Positions 30,720-42,620 of a stretch of 64,000 nucleotides of DNA are shown one piece after another (the stretch's first letter is position 1; the number at the start of each line of letters is the position of its first letter). The stretch is taken from NCBI GenBank assembly GCA_000237975.1, contig CP003179.1:2820270-2884269 (forward strand), read 5' to 3'. The notes under the pieces were generated by a model. That model was not told the origin of the DNA. It ran no database searches and worked only from the letters and a program-made list of their open reading frames with translations. Both the position numbers and the translations under genes were made by a program. Source of the stretch: Sulfobacillus acidophilus DSM 10332. Its GTDB lineage: Bacteria > Bacillota > Sulfobacillia > Sulfobacillales > Sulfobacillaceae.

Positions 30720-31016
30720 ATGGCCAAATACCGTCATAGCAAAATTAAACGCCAACACCATGTCCTCGAGGCACTGGAAGACGGATTGGCCCAAATTGCC
30801 GCCTTAGATATCGTCGACGGCATTATTCCCGGCATGATTAAACCGAAAAGTGGCGGATCCACGGGGTTTAGTTTTCAATATCGGACGCCAAGCGGCTTGA
30901 AGTTAATTGGCCGATCCGGTGGGGCCGCCCAAGAAGTGTTTGTGATTACCCAAAATCCGGACGCGGTCATTCAATTTTTAGTGGCCTCGGGCCTGATTGA
31001 AGGCCCGCCGTCTTAA
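30720..31016 (+). CDS. Small conserved protein, DUF2103-like
   Basis: A 98-residue protein, basic at its N-terminus (KYRHSKIKRQHH), with IIPGMIKPKSGG and PSGLKLIGRSGGAAQEVFVIT. It resembles the DUF2103 family of predicted metal-binding proteins, from memory. The ATG follows GGAAGGAGGG, 28 bp after minC, so it probably shares the minC transcript. Its stop overlaps the end of the convergent exporter gene by 4 bases. Confidence 0.6.
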   Translation: MAKYRHSKIKRQHHVLEALEDGLAQIAALDIVDGIIPGMIKPKSGGSTGFSFQYRTPSGLKLIGRSGGAAQEVFVITQNPDAVIQFLVASGLIEGPPS

Positions 31017-31435
31017 GTTCCCCGGCGTAAAAGGGGTCGGATGAACGCGGCCGATAAGGCTAACCCCAAACTAATGGCCCCGGCCGCCAACAATGCCGTT
31101 AACCCGGATTGTAGGCCCGCCGGAAAATGGCCCCTTAAAAAAGACACCATGCTTTGGTAGGCCAGTTCCCCCGGCACGTAAACGACAATGGCCGGCACCA
31201 CAAACACCGGGCTCGGTTCCCGTTCCCAGGTGGCCGCGATTTCGCCTAATGTCCCCACGACCAACGCGCCGATGAAATCCATCAACAGGCCCGAACCGGG
31301 AATACGGTGGACCAAACTCGCCACGGCCCAAGAAACCGCCCCAATGATACCCGACAACAATAAGGCGCGACGTGACACCTGATATAAAAGGCCGAAAGCC
31401 ACGGCGGTCAACCCGGCTAAGAGCAAATCTTTCAT
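31013..31435 (-). CDS. Threonine/serine exporter small subunit (YjjB/DUF3815 type)
   Basis: A 140-residue membrane protein with four to five hydrophobic segments, matching the C-terminal half of ThrE-type exporters. The motif VPAIVVYVPGELAYQSM is typical of the YjjB-like subunit. It overlaps the upstream YjjP-like gene by 4 bases (ATGA), so the two halves are made together as one transporter. It is the last gene of a six-gene minus-strand operon. Confidence 0.85.
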   Translation of the reverse strand: MKDLLLAGLTAVAFGLLYQVSRRALLLSGIIGAVSWAVASLVHRIPGSGLLMDFIGALVVGTLGEIAATWEREPSPVFVVPAIVVYVPGELAYQSMVSFLRGHFPAGLQSGLTALLAAGAISLGLALSAAFIRPLLRRGT

Positions 31436-32214
31436 GAAGTCCAGCGTCCCCCCAGCGCCAAATAAAGATATAACGGCAAGGACGCACCGGCCGCTATGGC
31501 CCCGGCAGACAGCATCGCCTCCAACATCCGAGCCGCCGCCGATAAGAGGTCGCCTTGAATTCCGTCACGCACCGCCGTGGTCATGAGGAGTCCAGGCGTC
31601 AATACCATAATGCCCCCGACAACGATCGCCCCGGGATGAGGCCACCCTAAACTGGCGGCGCCCAACGCGGGGAGCACCGCCAGTAACGCTGCCAATAAAT
31701 CCGAGATACCGCCTACCACCCGGGTCCCAAACCGCCCTTGTCGCACCCATTGCGCTAAAGCCCCGGACACCAGCGCCGGTAGGGCATCCGCCGGTTGCCC
31801 GCCCATTAACTGGCTTAAAATCGCCGCCCCGACAGCGGCAAATCCCAAATGCATCCAACGCGGATAACGGCGAAACGTTTTAGCGGTTTCCACCCGCCGG
31901 GATAGCTCTTCCAACGGCATCGGGTGCTCCGCCACATCCCGCGAAATTTGGTTTATGGCCGCCAAGACCGCTAAATTGACCGACCGCCGATGGATCCGGC
32001 GCACGAGGGTAATACCGTCCGGACCGTGTAAGAAAAGTCCGGTGGGTAAAACCATCACCTCGACCGGATGAATGGCATAACTCTGCGCCAAGCGCTGCAT
32101 GGTATCTTCCACCCGAAAGGCTTCCGCCCCACTGGCCAGAAGCGCCATCCCGGCTTCAGCGATCGCTTCCAGAACGTTGAGGACGGGGCGCTCGCGGGGG
32201 GTCGACGTCGGCAT
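31432..32214 (-). CDS. Threonine/serine exporter large subunit (YjjP type)
   Basis: A 260-residue protein with an N-terminal cytoplasmic domain (LLASGAEAFRVEDTMQRLA, typical of the ThrE N-terminal family) and about five transmembrane segments. ATG at 32214 behind GGGAGGAGG fits family length; the frame is open to 32361. This start overlaps the end of gtrA by 59 bases, an unusually long same-strand overlap. Transport of threonine or serine is inferred from the family. Confidence 0.85.
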   Translation of the reverse strand: MPTSTPRERPVLNVLEAIAEAGMALLASGAEAFRVEDTMQRLAQSYAIHPVEVMVLPTGLFLHGPDGITLVRRIHRRSVNLAVLAAINQISRDVAEHPMPLEELSRRVETAKTFRRYPRWMHLGFAAVGAAILSQLMGGQPADALPALVSGALAQWVRQGRFGTRVVGGISDLLAALLAVLPALGAASLGWPHPGAIVVGGIMVLTPGLLMTTAVRDGIQGDLLSAAARMLEAMLSAGAIAAGASLPLYLYLALGGRWTS

Positions 32215-32596
32215 GCTCGGTAGCCTCCTCCCTGCGACGAAACACCCACAACAGCGACAAAACGAATCCGATAGCGGTTGCAAAGGGGATAGCCAGAAGA
32301 TCTGCCCAAATATAGTGCCAGCCTCGCCCCAAAAGATAGCGATAAATGGCGGTTTGGACAACGGCCCCGAAAGCGGTCACCACATTATATTCACCCATCC
32401 CGCGCCAACTAGGCGGTTGCCGAAAGGTGAGCCGGGCGTTGAGAAGATAGTTGGTGACAATCGACGCTTCCACGGCGATTAAATACGTTAGGGTCGGAAA
32501 ATGGGGTAGGAGCCAGCGCGCTATCGTCAACACGACAATGTTGACAGCTACCCCGCTCGCTCCCACAATCCCGTAAAATATGATCTTTCGTAACAT
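32156..32596 (-). CDS. GtrA-family membrane protein
   Basis: A 146-residue protein with four transmembrane segments and the family motif YLIAVEASIVTNYLLNARLTF. GtrA proteins are thought to help move lipid-linked sugars across the membrane. The ATG at 32596 lies 2 bases after the stop of the polyprenyl-phosphate glycosyltransferase gene, its probable partner. The tail after residue 125 is charged and lies over the start of the next gene. Confidence 0.85.
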   Translation of the reverse strand: MLRKIIFYGIVGASGVAVNIVVLTIARWLLPHFPTLTYLIAVEASIVTNYLLNARLTFRQPPSWRGMGEYNVVTAFGAVVQTAIYRYLLGRGWHYIWADLLAIPFATAIGFVLSLLWVFRRREEATEHADVDPPRAPRPQRSGSDR

Positions 32597-32598
32597 GG

Positions 32599-33348
32599 TT
32601 ACGGCCGTAGCCGCTCCTCGGCCGGCTGTCGGCCTTTGCCCAGCGATTCCGCACGCATCTTGGCCACCATCCACAAAGCCTCCATAAAGATGCTGGCCGA
32701 CATTTTGCTTTGCCCTTCGCGCCGTTCTTCAAAAATAATGGGCATTTCCACCACGGTAAACCCGGCTTGGACTGCCCGATAAGTCATTTCAATTTGGAAC
32801 CCATAGCCCGACGACTGGATTTGATCGAGATCTAAATGTTCAAGGACCGTCCGTCGGAAACACTTAAATCCCCCGGTCACATCCTTCAAGCCTAGACCTA
32901 GGAGGATTGACGCATATAGACTGCCCCCCCGGGAGATCAGACGACGGTACCAGGGCCAATTGGTGGCCCCTCCCCCGTTGACGTAACGCGACCCGAGAAC
33001 CACGTCAGCTCCCGTTTTTTGCATCGTCTCAATAAATTTCGGTAGGTATTGGGGATTATGCGAAAAATCGGCATCCATTTCGAAAAGATATTCATAACCC
33101 CGGCTCAAGCCATAACGAAATCCGGTCAGATAGGCTGTAGCCAAACCCAATTTGCCTTGACGGTGAATGACCTCCACCCGGCCAGGAAATTCTTCTTTAA
33201 GTCGGTCTGCCAACAGCCCGGTCCCGTCCGGCGAGCCGTCATCAATCACCAAAATGTCAAACATGGCCCCCTGATCCAATATAGCGTGAACCATCGGTGC
33301 CAAATTGCCCAACTCGTTGTAAGTTGGCAAAATCACCAAGGCTTTCAC
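32599..33348 (-). CDS. Polyprenyl-phosphate mannosyl/glucosyltransferase (DPM1-like, GT2)
   Basis: Transfers a sugar from a nucleotide donor to polyprenyl phosphate on the cytoplasmic face. The 249-residue protein shows ILPTYNELGNL, VIDDGSPDGTG, EMDADFSHNP (metal-binding DxD-like) and FEERREGQSKMS, all typical of dolichol-phosphate mannose synthase homologues. GTG at 33348 follows GGAGGAGG. With GtrA and a PIG-V-like enzyme it forms a lipid-linked glycosylation set. Confidence 0.9.
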   Translation of the reverse strand: MKALVILPTYNELGNLAPMVHAILDQGAMFDILVIDDGSPDGTGLLADRLKEEFPGRVEVIHRQGKLGLATAYLTGFRYGLSRGYEYLFEMDADFSHNPQYLPKFIETMQKTGADVVLGSRYVNGGGATNWPWYRRLISRGGSLYASILLGLGLKDVTGGFKCFRRTVLEHLDLDQIQSSGYGFQIEMTYRAVQAGFTVVEMPIIFEERREGQSKMSASIFMEALWMVAKMRAESLGKGRQPAEERLRP

Positions 33349-33373
33349 GATTCCAGAGCCTCCTCCGACAACC

Positions 33374-34528
33374 TCAGGCAATCCAATGCCATGTGGCAAA
33401 GGTGACGAAAAACACGACTTGCAACATCGGCAATACGAACCCTAGAAAACGTCGCCAACTTTCCCGTTCCGCCAGCATCGCCAACGTCACAAACATCGGG
33501 AAAATCACCAACACTAACCGGGACATACTGAGCAAAGGACTTTCTCCCGATGCCACCGGCGCGCTCACATCGACCAACCACAAGACCGCCCAGTAAACGA
33601 GCCAATCCCACGGTAATCGATGCTTCAGCCCATAAACCCACAAAAGGCCTGCCGATATGGCAGCCAACAAATCTATCATACTGAGTACGGCGCTCGGTTG
33701 CAATGGACTGCCATTCCAGATCGTGCGTACTGCCCAAAAAAAACCCAGCACGGGCCAAGTGATATGCCGACCCCAATAGGCTTGCGCCTGCATAAAAGCC
33801 AACGGCGTACCGAAGTCAATCCATTGATAGGTCATGAACGCCGCCAACCCGAGTCCAATAGGCAATACGCCCAATATTTTCCATCGCCAACGCCAACCGA
33901 AGTGTTGATAGTATACCACGAAAAAGGCGAGGGCCAAAAAGAGTCCCTCGTTGCGAGTTAACGTGGCCAACATCCCAAAAATCCCGGCGGCTACAAACCG
34001 GCGCCGTTTCAGCGCCAAAAAAGTTGCGGTACTGAGCCACAAAAAGAGGGATTCGGTATACGCCGCCGACAAAAAAAAGGCACTGGGAAATATCAGCGCC
34101 AGCCATACGGCACGCCGGGCCAAGGTGTCGTCAAAAGTTTCCCGGACAAGATAATATAACGTAAAAACGAATAACAAGAGGCTCACATTGGCCACGAAAA
34201 CGGCGCTGGCATCATAACCGAGCCGAAAAACGAGATGGCCGGCCGCAATTAATAAGGGATAGAGCGGGAAAAAGGCTAACGCCTGCGTCCAATACCCGTG
34301 TTGGGCGATTTGGGTATACCAAATCCCGTCCCAACGCACCCACATCAGAATCCAAGGGGAGCTACTCGTATTAAACGTCGGCGAGAGATATTGCCACGGC
34401 AATAATGCCAACGCCACCCAGCCGGCCAGAAGTAAACCTACCCGGGTCCAAAGCAAGGTTTCGACAATTTCCCGGCCGGCTTCCGAACCGGGCCACCACG
34501 CTTGAAGCCATGTACGTATCCGATGCAT
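33374..34528 (-). CDS. PIG-V-like membrane mannosyltransferase
   Basis: A 384-residue multi-pass membrane enzyme with the N-terminal loop WVRWDGIWYTQIAQHGY and FFPLYPLLI, features of PIG-V-type GT-C transferases that use polyprenyl-phosphate sugars. The ATG at 34528 lies 2 bases after the preceding stop. It probably consumes the product of the GT2 enzyme encoded downstream. The acceptor (protein, lipid or polymer) is unknown. Confidence 0.82.
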   Translation of the reverse strand: MHRIRTWLQAWWPGSEAGREIVETLLWTRVGLLLAGWVALALLPWQYLSPTFNTSSSPWILMWVRWDGIWYTQIAQHGYWTQALAFFPLYPLLIAAGHLVFRLGYDASAVFVANVSLLLFVFTLYYLVRETFDDTLARRAVWLALIFPSAFFLSAAYTESLFLWLSTATFLALKRRRFVAAGIFGMLATLTRNEGLFLALAFFVVYYQHFGWRWRWKILGVLPIGLGLAAFMTYQWIDFGTPLAFMQAQAYWGRHITWPVLGFFWAVRTIWNGSPLQPSAVLSMIDLLAAISAGLLWVYGLKHRLPWDWLVYWAVLWLVDVSAPVASGESPLLSMSRLVLVIFPMFVTLAMLAERESWRRFLGFVLPMLQVVFFVTFATWHWIA

Positions 34529-34530
34529 AC

Positions 34531-35400
34531 CTAGATGGACGGCTGGGGCGATAATCCAACCTGCTTTTCTAAAATCAGGCCGCGCCATTCGTTAAGGACC
34601 GGTAAAGCTGCCGCTTCCTTCAATTTATCGGCCTGGGGCCGAGGCAACCCAAATCGCAGAGTTTTGACACCCCACGCACGGGCTTCAACCCACAAATATT
34701 CTAACAAGGCTTTTAGATGCGTGCCCATCGACCGCATATAGTGCACGGTTAAATCGCGATCATTGATGGCATAGAGGGCCAACGTATCGACGGCCTGGCC
34801 GACCTCTTGCGGCGCGACTAACGCCCCGCCCGCCTCCAATCGTCCCCAAATGTCGTCCAACGTTAACGATTGGGGAATCCAGGGATCCGGCATGGCCCAT
34901 AAATCTCGGGGATGTTGTTCGTAAAACGCCTCAATCCGTTGCCGATCAATCGCCCAGGCCGGGCCGGCCACCTCATTGCCGTAGGGAGGGCCTTGGAAGC
35001 CCTCAAAGGTCCCGACGACCCATTCTTCGACCACCCGAAACCCTAAGCCTTCCCAAATACTTCGGGACGCATCATTGCCGCGGGGTACCAACGCGCGAAT
35101 CACCGTCGCCCCCAACCGCTCGGCCTCGGCCACCTGAAAGGCCGCAAATTCCTCCCCCACCCCTTTACCTTGGACATCCGGGCGAATGCGCATGCCCCCT
35201 AGGTAAGCCTCATGGGGTTTCGGAAGGGCAATGACGGACAACCCGACCAGCTGGTCGTCATCATTGGCCAAATAGATTCCACCGGTTTTATATGTAAGAT
35301 ACCGAGGAAATTCGTGCACCAAATAGTCGTCCACAAACTGACCCAAAAATTGCTCAATCCGCGCCTGATCCTCCGCGGCGGCTCGGACATACCGTAACAA
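34531..35400 (-). CDS. GNAT acetyltransferase with C-terminal extension
   Basis: A protein of about 289 residues. The N-terminal half is a GNAT domain with MRIRPDVQGKGVGEEFAAFQ and NDASRSIWEGLGFR. The C-terminal half (from about residue 160) may be a second, degenerate GNAT fold. TTG at 35400 fits GGGGGAGGG well; an ATG at 35433 would add CPCC residues encoded over the ribosome-binding site, which I think are not real. It heads the operon. Substrate unknown. Confidence 0.75.
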   Translation of the reverse strand: MLRYVRAAAEDQARIEQFLGQFVDDYLVHEFPRYLTYKTGGIYLANDDDQLVGLSVIALPKPHEAYLGGMRIRPDVQGKGVGEEFAAFQVAEAERLGATVIRALVPRGNDASRSIWEGLGFRVVEEWVVGTFEGFQGPPYGNEVAGPAWAIDRQRIEAFYEQHPRDLWAMPDPWIPQSLTLDDIWGRLEAGGALVAPQEVGQAVDTLALYAINDRDLTVHYMRSMGTHLKALLEYLWVEARAWGVKTLRFGLPRPQADKLKEAAALPVLNEWRGLILEKQVGLSPQPSI

Positions 35401-35475
35401 CCAAGGCCCTCCCCCATTGCAACATGGACACATTGTAACGTCAAAGGACAGCAACTTCAACTTTAAGGGAGCCGG

Positions 35476-35841
35476 CTAAGGCTGCTGCGGCACCAAATGA
35501 TTCAGTTGACGAATATATAGGGCCAATTCCGTCGCCTGCTGGCTGGTCAGTATCCCCGGGTCCGACGCGGGCATATGCGTTTGGATGAAGGTCGCCAAAG
35601 CGGTGGTAGTAGGGTACGTTGTCGTCACGCTCCCGTCATTCAAGACCGGAGCGTTTCCCGCACCATTGCCGCCAGGGCCATGACACGTCTCACACATTTG
35701 CTGGAATAACACGGCCCCCGCCTGCGCTTCTTGGAGCTGACTGGTCGTTGCCGCCGTTTGATGATCATGATACCCCAACGCCCCGGCACTTAATACCGCT
35801 ACAACCCCCACTCCGAGGCCGATCCAGTGTTTGACCGCCAT
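35476..35841 (-). CDS. Small membrane-anchored cytochrome c
   Basis: A 121-residue protein with one N-terminal membrane anchor (residues about 6-24) and a CETCH haem site (Cys50, Cys53, His54); a Met in HMPASDP is a likely sixth ligand. It starts directly after the stop of the beta-propeller cytochrome gene, so both are co-translated and this protein probably carries electrons away from that enzyme to the respiratory chain. Confidence 0.85.
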   Translation of the reverse strand: MAVKHWIGLGVGVVAVLSAGALGYHDHQTAATTSQLQEAQAGAVLFQQMCETCHGPGGNGAGNAPVLNDGSVTTTYPTTTALATFIQTHMPASDPGILTSQQATELALYIRQLNHLVPQQP

Positions 35842-37569
35842 TTACTTACAGCCTCCTCCAGCCCCGGAACCTTTTTGGGTACTGGCTTCAAGGTTATCCG
35901 TCCATCCACTGGACAGCCAGTGCAAATATAAATTCAGATCGACCAATCGGGGATCGCTGACCGAAAGGGGTTTGCCGCCCATCGATTTAATGCAATGGTT
36001 AATCTGCCCGTCAAGCGTTTTAACTTGACCATTGACCACTTTGGGAAACCCGGCCGCCGCCCCTAACAGCGACGGCACAATAATGCCGTTTTGATATGTG
36101 GTCAAGGTGCCGCCGCCCACATGGCACGAATCACACGAAAGGCCGGTCGGTGAAAGGCTATGCCCCATAAAGAGAGCCTCGCCTTTTTGGATATCTTGGC
36201 CTAAAACCCCGGAGGGAATCGGGATATTCGGCGCATGCATTTCATTTTTCAACAACAAATCCGCAGTCGGCAGGGCAAACATTTGGCCGTTCTCATCAGG
36301 CTGATAGAGGGTTTGTCCTATCACAATCGGAAAGTCCGCCGCCAAGGTCCCCGACAAAAACCGGCTACCCAGCTCCTGCCCGGTCGTCGGGTTCAAGGCA
36401 TACAAAAATCCGGCACTGTCCCCGACATAAAGGGCACTGGAGGTTACGGCGGCCGATTCGGAAATCCCTCCGGCGGCTTTGAACGCCCACTTAATCTGAC
36501 CGGTGTGGGCATTGACCGCGTATTCTTTGTCCGTCACGGGACTGCCGACATACACCGCACCATTGACCACCGTCGGCGCCGACACTTCAATGTCCGTCGG
36601 CAATATCCCCGATCCCAATCGCGTCATCCAGTCCAGCCGCCCGCTCGTGGCATTAAAGGCGTACAAAACCGATTGGGGCGCGGTCCAGCTGCCGGTGGTG
36701 CCTTCGACATAAACCATGTTGGCGGCATAGGCCAATGAACTGTCGTCCGAGCCGCCAAATACATGCGGCACGGCCGACTGCCAGGCTATTTGCCGGGTCG
36801 CGGTATTAATCGCGTAAACCTGATAGGGGTGAGCCCCCGACACATAGAGATACCCGTTGGGCCCCAACACCGGGGACGACATGCTGACATAGGACCCGAT
36901 ATTTAGGGACCAAAGCAACTGGCCGCTCGTCGCATTAAATGCATAGACCGTTCCGTTGCCGTTGGCGGCATAGAGGGTGTTGCCGTTCAATACAAAAGAC
37001 GGCATGTCTTCCCCCGGGGTGGAAAACTTCCAGACCACATGGCCATTGGCGGCATCCAATGCATAAATCGCGTTGGGTCCGGTCCCGCGAACGATATTGG
37101 TGGCGTTCAAGTTATTCTCGTTGGCCAGGTTGTTGCCTTGAAACAGTTGATTGCCGCTCCCGACAAACACCAAGCCGTCCCCCACCACCGGCGTCGTCAT
37201 CGACATATTGTTCAGCTGCCGACTCCACAAGAGGGTCCCGTTAGCCGCATCTAATGCATAAATGCGGTCATCCTGGGGGTCCGTTAAATTACCGCCGTCC
37301 CCGGAAGCGTATATGACCCCATTCGCTATGGAGGCTTGCTGGAGCGGTTCCGGCGCGGTGTAGGTCCAACGGACTTGCCAGTTCGCCACCGACGCCGATT
37401 CATCGACCGGATTATTGTTGTCGGTCATCGCATACTTATCGAAACTGGTCGGCCCCACATGGGTTGACGCGGTCGCCACGGTCGTTTGAGTCCCCGAAAA
37501 GCCCAACCATACGCCCACCCCGGCAATCACCGGTAACGCCCACAGCCCATAACGCGACACCCAGTTCAT
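35842..37569 (-). CDS. PQQ-like beta-propeller fused to a thiosulfate-dehydrogenase-like cytochrome c domain
   Basis: A 575-residue exported or anchored protein. An N-terminal hydrophobic segment (residues about 9-26) is followed by a beta-propeller with repeated YALDAANG/YAFNATSG..LLW blades (about 55-430) and a cytochrome c domain with CDSCH (Cys479-His483). Cys526 in INHC lies 43 residues after the haem histidine, and the tail SMGGKPL..VDLNLYLHWLS closely follows TsdA/SoxA-type domains, where such a Cys ligates haem. Propeller-type tetrathionate hydrolases are known in acidophiles. A thiosulfate or tetrathionate redox role is inferred; an alcohol-dehydrogenase-like enzyme is the alternative. 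ATG at 37569 follows AGGGAGGGG. Confidence 0.8.
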   Translation of the reverse strand: MNWVSRYGLWALPVIAGVGVWLGFSGTQTTVATASTHVGPTSFDKYAMTDNNNPVDESASVANWQVRWTYTAPEPLQQASIANGVIYASGDGGNLTDPQDDRIYALDAANGTLLWSRQLNNMSMTTPVVGDGLVFVGSGNQLFQGNNLANENNLNATNIVRGTGPNAIYALDAANGHVVWKFSTPGEDMPSFVLNGNTLYAANGNGTVYAFNATSGQLLWSLNIGSYVSMSSPVLGPNGYLYVSGAHPYQVYAINTATRQIAWQSAVPHVFGGSDDSSLAYAANMVYVEGTTGSWTAPQSVLYAFNATSGRLDWMTRLGSGILPTDIEVSAPTVVNGAVYVGSPVTDKEYAVNAHTGQIKWAFKAAGGISESAAVTSSALYVGDSAGFLYALNPTTGQELGSRFLSGTLAADFPIVIGQTLYQPDENGQMFALPTADLLLKNEMHAPNIPIPSGVLGQDIQKGEALFMGHSLSPTGLSCDSCHVGGGTLTTYQNGIIVPSLLGAAAGFPKVVNGQVKTLDGQINHCIKSMGGKPLSVSDPRLVDLNLYLHWLSSGWTDNLEASTQKGSGAGGGCK

Positions 37570-37732
37570 GAAACCCCTCCCTGCGGTCGACACAAAACCT
37601 CTAGCATTCACTTTAACCGTGTCCATTGGAATTCAGGCTGAAACTTAGCTGAAACTCACCCCGCCGCGCGGCGTGATCCCGTCGGCAAAATTCCCTATAA
37701 TGGCGAGGATAGTCGAAAAGGGAGGCCGCCAG

Positions 37733-40879: not shown

Positions 40880-41356
40880 ATGGCTTCCGAAACCAAGACC
40901 CTCCGGGTCGGCGATCAAGCCCCGACGTTTCGCTTGCCGACTAAAGACGACCGCACGGTCGATTTAGCCGATTATCGCGGACGCCGCAGCGTGATTCTCG
41001 TCTTCTATCCGTTAGCCTGGACCCCCGTCTGAACGCACGAAATGCCGGCTTTCAATCAGGCGTTGCCTGAATTTGACCGGATCAATGCCCAAGTTTTGGG
41101 CATTAGTGTGGACTCCGTCCCGTGTAACACCGCTTGGGAAGCATCTCTAGGAGGACTAAACTACCCCCTCCTTTCCGATTTCTGGCCTCATGGCGCGGTC
41201 GCCGAACAATATGGCGTACTTCGTGACGAAGGTTACACCGAACGCGCCATTATTGGGATCGACAAAAACGGCGTGGTGCGTTTTATCGATGTCCATGACA
41301 TTAATCAAGTGCCCGATCCCCACGAGGTGCTCGAGGCCATGCGCCCGTACGCCTAA
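40880..41356 (+). CDS. Peroxiredoxin, probable selenoprotein with in-frame TGA at residue 51
   Basis: AhpC/TSA-family peroxidase that would reduce peroxides. Read through the TGA at 41030-41032, the frame gives 158 residues: GDQAPTFRLP, VILVFYPLAWTPV-U-THEMPAF, then SVDSVPCNTAW, YPLLSDF and VVRFIDVHD. The TGA replaces exactly the peroxidatic cysteine of FYP..TPVC. A 6-bp hairpin (41056-41070) starts 23 bases after the TGA. Cys82 could be the resolving residue. ATG at 40880 follows GAGGTGAG. Other genes here use TGA as a true stop, so recoding would be local. A nonsense mutation or sequencing error is the alternative, but both halves are intact. Confidence 0.85.
41030..41032 (+). other. In-frame TGA, probable selenocysteine codon (peroxiredoxin Sec51)
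   Basis: This TGA sits at the position of the peroxidatic cysteine in the motif TPV-x-THEMPAF, with the same frame open on both sides. Confidence 0.82.
41041..41078 (+). promoter_or_regulatory. SECIS-like hairpin in the peroxiredoxin mRNA
   Basis: TCAGGC (41056-41061) and GCCTGA (41065-41070) form a 6-bp stem with loop GTT. The loop begins with G and lies 29 bases after the TGA, within the roughly 16-37 base range of bacterial SECIS elements. A lower CCGG/CCGG stem is possible. Confidence 0.6.

Positions 41357-41420: not shown

Positions 41421-42620
<1,200 letters not shown>

Follow-up and report, generated by a model that had tools for sequence, protein, structure and literature searches.

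A tetrathionate hydrolase-like propeller joined to a SoxA/TsdA-type haem domain in Sulfobacillus acidophilus: a candidate sulfur-compound oxidoreductase

We describe a gene of Sulfobacillus acidophilus DSM 10332 that encodes, in a single chain, an N-terminal hydrophobic helix, an eight-bladed β-propeller resembling tetrathionate hydrolase (TTH), a haem c domain of the SoxA/TsdA type and a flexible tail with a conserved cysteine next to its end. It is directly followed by a gene for a small cytochrome c. We propose that the product may be a membrane-anchored, extracytoplasmic sulfur-compound oxidoreductase in which haem redox chemistry and propeller hydrolysis are combined in one chain, a proposal to which we give an even chance. 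The open-access papers searched contain no description of this fusion, which does not prove that it is absent from the literature elsewhere.

Results

The fusion gene and its partner cytochrome

The window analysed here is a stretch of 64,000 nucleotides, and positions are given in it unless stated otherwise; it belongs to a host genome whose two contigs add up to 3,557,831 bases, with 3,472,898 in one of them. Positions 35476-37569 hold two genes, both on the minus strand (as are all features of the two proteins given below), whose open reading frames abut without a gap: the fusion gene (35842-37569, stop codon included, 575 amino acids) and the cytochrome c gene (35476-35841, 121 amino acids). 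The mechanical open reading frame of the fusion begins further upstream, at a possible ATG at 37626, and would give 594 amino acids. The ATG at 37569, which the preliminary description had chosen, is probably the true start, because it is preceded by a Shine-Dalgarno-like site, GGGAGGGG (37574-37581, read directly from the sequence), and agrees with the start of the fusion proteins of relatives, which are about 570 amino acids long. Residues are numbered from this ATG; the Pfam, blast and locus analyses used the 594-residue frame, so that 19 has to be added to convert to their numbering. Residues 3-25 (37495-37563) form a hydrophobic helix, also present in the AlphaFold2 model of the fusion (pLDDT 77), that is predicted to act as a membrane anchor or signal.

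The product of the second gene is a predicted membrane-anchored class I cytochrome c (PF13442) with a CETCH motif at 35680-35694 and Met90 as its presumed sixth ligand. The same gene directly follows the fusion gene in 15 of 15 relatives (14 intact and one split), and the small cytochrome c that had been noticed right after the fusion is thus found in every relative.

Relatives were sought in 121 genomes and in genome contigs. Full-length fusions were found only in Sulfobacillus-type organisms, namely S. benefaciens AMDSBA4, S. harzensis and further MAGs, one fusion-bearing MAG being filed as Actinomycetes; no additional fusion came from 398 genomes sampled throughout the phylum. IMG/VR contained no relative, on which ground a viral origin was rejected. 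Plasmid-borne relatives were likewise discarded, as the plasmid matches comprised distant propellers and ordinary TsdA only.

Split, partial and neighbouring genes

In S. thermotolerans Kr1 (locus L048, 6009-7696, minus strand) the fusion is split into a propeller frame of 383 amino acids and a haem frame of 166 amino acids, and this copy retains both the cytochrome c and the GGC tail. Propeller-only paralogues (L057-L061; L078-L080, L082) are 54-57% identical and nested within the fusion group, which argues that the haem domain was probably lost from them after duplication. Many of these genomes also contain stand-alone haem proteins of the SoxA/TsdA type, of about 140-190 amino acids (L049-L056, L065, L066). 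They are usually encoded near ddl and rplA, and nine of ten end in FHER; they keep the Cys ligand, and the active-site Arg is replaced by Gln, Glu or His. The idea that the propeller-only and haem-only relatives might be subunits of one system was rejected because their genes are monocistronic and unlinked.

Downstream of the operon, a block on the minus strand (31013-35460) encodes a GNAT acetyltransferase, a PMT-like protein, a family-2 glycosyltransferase (GT2), a GtrA-like protein and a ThrE-type exporter. The block is syntenic in most relatives and holds no sulfur genes; the conserved neighbourhood was therefore dropped as a clue to function, the cytochrome excepted.

The propeller is most similar to tetrathionate hydrolase

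The propeller spans residues ~58-440 (36250-37398), in agreement with the roughly 380 residues first estimated. Its closest solved match by sequence is the TTH of Acidithiobacillus ferrooxidans (Af-TTH; E=1e-40), and its closest solved fold, searched with the AlphaFold2 model, is the same protein (6l8a; Z 51.2, rmsd 1.9, 397 residues aligned), far ahead of BamB and designed propellers; the top Pfam family of the fusion is the BamB-like PQQ_2. Asp325 is the general acid of Af-TTH, and the D325N variant is inactive (PMC10859504). Its equivalent in the window protein is Asp276 (36742-36744), which is invariant in the 40 propellers aligned. Arg208 and Asn169 (Af-TTH numbering) are also present in all 40, and Met172, Met238 and Met279 in nearly all; this alignment took in TTHs, fusions and other propellers, and the Asp, Arg, Asn and Met residues are kept in all kinds alike. 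Cys301 of Af-TTH was considered as a catalytic residue as well, and is ruled out by the literature (PMC10859504).

The fusion thus shares with Af-TTH (6l8a / 7cqy) the propeller fold, Asp325, Arg208, Asn169, the three methionines and Ser281, and the TTH-like propeller recognized at the outset is well founded. Unlike Af-TTH, it bears a membrane helix, a haem domain and a GGC tail, and it sits outside the TTH clade: in a tree with a single characterised TTH, Af-TTH and a 616-residue protein of the host formed one group (100/99), and the fusion propellers another (99/99). Since the fusions stand apart from the TTH clade and similar propellers exist without haem, the propeller may act on another substrate.

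Other propellers and sulfur genes of the host

The host has two further TTH-like propellers. One is the 616-residue TTH-type protein (locus L002, 1471-3321; host C1:2704710-2705822), whose N-terminus bears a sub-threshold resemblance to cell wall binding domain 2 (PF04122; 20.6 bits) and which may for this reason be attached to the cell wall. The other is a fusion of a PMT-type membrane glycosyltransferase with a propeller (L003, 1486-4029; host C1:1952035-1953066, open frame of 908 amino acids; also found at L031). It retains the catalytic Asp, and similar frames of 880-916 amino acids occur in many genomes of the family. Locus L024 was rejected as a third glycosyltransferase-propeller fusion, its N-terminal part having no domain.

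A DoxD gene is present in the host genome. In S. acidophilus strain TPY, the annotated sulfur oxidation genes include TQO and tetH (PMC5114278). Elsewhere in the window (41421-42602, minus strand) we noted a protein similar to UDP-sulfoquinovose synthase, with 476 bits against an equivalog cut-off of 575, and thus below it; the similarity suggests synthesis of a sulfolipid or a related sugar.

The haem domain is related to TsdA and SoxA

For the full model, VIA-align and Foldseek listed propellers only, and the haem domain was therefore folded and searched separately. Folded from 26 sequences (pLDDT 84), it matched TsdA first (Z 12.8, 110 residues aligned) and SoxAX next (Z 10.9, 1h31). The domain (residues ~452-555, 35905-36216) also gave a sequence match to TsdA (E=6e-9) and a match to the SoxA/TsdA family PF21342 of 27.5 bits, where the cut-off is 27. 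The preliminary description had proposed structure prediction with superposition on TTH and TsdA, and the outcome supports it on both counts, with the propeller on TTH at Z 51 and a C-terminal domain whose best match by sequence and by fold is TsdA. Scores of this size put both homologies well outside anything that chance would give.

The CDSCH haem attachment site (residues 479-483, 36121-36135), in which His483 is the predicted proximal ligand, is the only CxxCH in the chain, and the motif is invariant in the 26 haem domains aligned. Cys526 (35992-35994), the presumed distal ligand, is invariant in the same 26 domains and aligns with the haem-ligand Cys of TsdA. It lies 43 residues past His483, as first described, and exactly this spacing was found in all 16 haem domains of fusions. 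The spacing had also been read as TsdA-like: it is indeed present, but by itself it is not diagnostic, because TsdA varies in this respect (a manual count gives 39 residues for the Cupriavidus TsdA, L100), and we have dropped it as proof of kinship.

The fusions differ from TsdA at the active site. The thiosulfate-binding residue Arg119 of A. vinosum TsdA is located at Cys-4 and is reported to be invariant in TsdA and SoxA (PMC4423706). Its replacement by Ala raised the Km for thiosulfate from 0.22 to 17 mM and lowered kcat from 920 to 378 s-1 (at 0.2 mM ferricyanide); the variant was still active despite its changed kinetics (PMC4423706). This position is Arg in six of six TsdA reference proteins (five of which entered the haem-domain tree) and, in its sequence alignment with the fusion, in SoxA 1h31, whereas it is Gln in 15 of the 16 fusions, among them the window protein (Gln522, 36004-36006), and Glu in the remaining one. 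The position of TsdA Ser127 (Cys+4) is Met in most fusions, and the preceding one (Cys+3) is Ser in the window protein and Gly, Ala or other residues in its relatives.

The fusion is therefore similar to A. vinosum TsdA (4wq7 / 4v2k) in the fold of the haem domain, the CxxCH and the His/Cys pair at 43 residues, and dissimilar in that Gln stands in for Arg119, Ser127 is not conserved, the chain has a single haem domain and a propeller is attached. Like SoxA (1h31, 2c1d) it has a haem domain of the SoxA type with a presumed Cys ligand, but it is without the active-site Arg at Cys-4. As Arg119 is replaced by Gln or Glu in every fusion, the fusion is not an ordinary TsdA: to judge from the sequence, the haem domain is akin to TsdA, but its substrate pocket has changed. 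The preliminary description had envisaged a thiosulfate dehydrogenase or tetrathionate reductase; an enzyme of the plain TsdA type is not supported, in view of the loss of Arg119 in 16 of 16 fusions, the unconserved Ser127 and the missing second haem domain.

A conserved cysteine at the C-terminus

From about residue 556 onward the protein is predicted to be disordered, and it ends in a flexible tail (35845-35904; pLDDT <50 in both models) that closes with Gly-Gly-Cys-Lys. Its cysteine, Cys574 (35848-35850), is invariant in the fusion alignment. Every fusion ends in Gly-Cys followed by at most one further residue, with GGC in all but one, whereas the linker past the last helix is poorly conserved. 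As a control, the fetched DNA was screened for distinct open reading frames of at least 200 amino acids: 14 of 499 end in GGC and at most one residue more, and all 14 are fusions. The Gly-Cys tail is absent from the propeller-only and the haem-only relatives. Cys526 and Cys574 are the sole free cysteines in the window protein.

Thus, of the preliminary description, the likenesses of fold and domains stand and the claim of a TsdA-like enzyme is weakened, and the conserved C-terminal GGC had been overlooked.

The SoxY motif is GGCGG, and the Gly-Gly-Cys on the flexible arm of the fusion recalls the swinging arm of that protein. In SoxY, intermediates are held on a cysteine at the tip of such an arm; in the Sox model, SoxAX loads thiosulfate onto SoxY, and SoxB then releases sulfate (PMC5336275). 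The hydrolysis of an S-SO3 group that we propose for the fusion would recall the SoxB step. The likeness does not extend to the proteins themselves: the fusion has neither a SoxY nor a SoxB domain, the part of the hydrolase would fall to a TTH-like propeller, and all components stand in one chain. A Pfam scan of the fusion gave no match to a SoxY domain, and we saw no SoxY-type sequence homology. The SoxY profile PF13501 matched nothing in the host genome, and nothing in the control genomes either.

Discussion

A proposed reaction sequence

The combination of a SoxA-type haem, a SoxY-like arm and a TTH-like propeller is most simply explained if one adduct is sequentially oxidized and hydrolysed. 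At the haem, presumably ligated by His and Cys, a thiol would be joined by oxidation to a reduced sulfur compound, for which thiosulfate or a sulfane/persulfide is the likeliest candidate, in the manner of TsdA and SoxA. The C-terminal Gly-Gly-Cys could then receive the adduct in the form -S-S-SO3-, just as SoxAX loads the arm of SoxY; this carrier step is suggested by analogy, and we regard it as tentative, with the chances against it. In the propeller, Asp276 would protonate the sulfane sulfur and water would release sulfate. TTH removes sulfate from tetrathionate (PMC10859504), and the proposed chemistry is that of tetrathionate hydrolysis, R-S-S-SO3- + H2O -> R-S-SH + SO4(2-), where R would be the arm cysteine or a second thiosulfate. 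As the Sox and TTH reactions both have this form, they amount to the same chemical step. The electrons would pass to the abutting cytochrome c and from there to a terminal oxidase. What is observed is the architecture, its conservation, the operon and the folds; how the haem is ligated, which substrate is used, each of the reactions and the tail as a carrier are inferred.

Taken to its full extent, the proposal describes a single-chain, Sox-like machine, anchored in the membrane of acidophilic Gram-positive bacteria, in which a SoxA-type Cys-haem works together with a carrier cysteine of the SoxY type and with a TTH-type propeller that takes the place of SoxB, and in which the thiosulfate-binding Arg site has been redesigned. 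We consider this complete version unlikely to be right in all its parts. The weak points of the oxidoreductase proposal are the missing active-site Arg of TsdA and SoxA, the separate clade of the propellers and the existence of propeller-only copies. If it is correct, two families of inorganic sulfur oxidation enzymes, whose members are separate proteins elsewhere, are joined here, sulfane-sulfonate oxidation and hydrolysis can be coupled within one polypeptide, and Sulfobacillus, a main bioleaching group, has a sulfur enzyme linked to a cytochrome that adds to TQO and TTH and would be new to the literature searched.

Alternative explanations

The alternative nearest to the idea of the preliminary description is a bifunctional enzyme of the S4-intermediate pathway, in which the haem domain would, like TsdA, form tetrathionate from two thiosulfates and the propeller would hydrolyse the product on site, Cys574 serving only for redox protection or structure. 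That pathway has two enzymes, each of which is matched by one of the domains, the neighbouring cytochrome could replace the second haem of TsdA, and thiosulfate-reducible activity survives the R119A exchange in TsdA (PMC4423706). Nevertheless, we hold this explanation to be improbable: it has to contend with Gln in place of an invariant Arg, with a Ser127 that is not conserved and with the lack of a second in-chain haem domain, it leaves the conserved GGC unexplained, and the species, by the TPY annotation (PMC5114278), is already equipped for these steps with TQO and TetH. The loss of the substrate-binding Arg would be easier to understand if the protein were a hub for electron transfer, serving for instance iron oxidation or contact with metal sulfides, its propeller a BamB-like scaffold for binding or docking and its haem domain and cytochrome a path for electrons to the terminal oxidase. 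The BamB-like PQQ_2 is indeed the top Pfam match, and Sulfobacillus oxidizes iron with an iron oxidase that is still unsettled (PMC6315122). The potential of a His/Cys-ligated haem is low, however (-134 mV in C. jejuni TsdA, PMC9562282), and hence unsuited to iron at pH 2; moreover, the propeller retains the catalytic Asp of TTH with its Arg, Asn and Met neighbours, and the conserved tail cysteine would have no explanation. A hub of this kind appears to us a rather poor candidate.

The two conserved, reactive cysteines, and the occurrence of the family in many genomes whatever the number of paralogues, would also suit a sensor or redox regulator without a part in energy metabolism, which would bind a sulfur species or an oxidant through the haem Cys and then either signal or give protection to the surface. 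We found neither a signalling domain in the protein nor a regulator in the operon, and the conserved pairing with a respiratory-type cytochrome c argues against such a role, which we think highly unlikely. Least probable by far is a PQQ-dependent quinohaemoprotein dehydrogenase for alcohols or sugars with unusual domains, a possibility that the preliminary description had itself raised against its reading. The order of the parts, a propeller and then a cytochrome c domain, is that of the quinohaemoprotein alcohol dehydrogenases (1kv9, 1yiq), and 1kv9 does appear in the fold list, far down. Yet the propeller of the window protein has no cysteine and thus no vicinal Cys pair, the model for PQQ alcohol dehydrogenases reaches 48.7 bits where 480 are needed to pass its cut-off, the fold is matched far better by TTH, and the fusion differs from these enzymes in lacking the PQQ signature, in the family of its haem domain and in a far lower similarity. 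On the absent propeller cysteine and the profile score we have rejected a PQQ alcohol dehydrogenase.

Selenocysteine and tRNA genes of the host

Apart from the fusion and the sulfur oxidoreductase proposed for it, the window contains an AhpC/TSA peroxiredoxin gene (40895-41356, plus strand) with an in-frame TGA at 41030-41032, exactly at the position of the peroxidatic Cys (FYPLAWTPV-TGA-THEMPAF). The same TGA is found in five syntenic relatives (L034-L038), and the host genome has SelA and a tRNA-Sec with the anticodon TCA. The gene probably encodes a selenocysteine peroxiredoxin, which gene callers would cut to an open reading frame of 104 amino acids at 41042. Finally, a tRNA-Cys with the anticodon GCA (L112, 1497-1591; host C1:1007566-1007656, minus strand) scores 56 bits with the tRNA-Sec model, above its gathering threshold of 47, and on this score and its anticodon we class it as a cysteine tRNA of Sec-tRNA shape.
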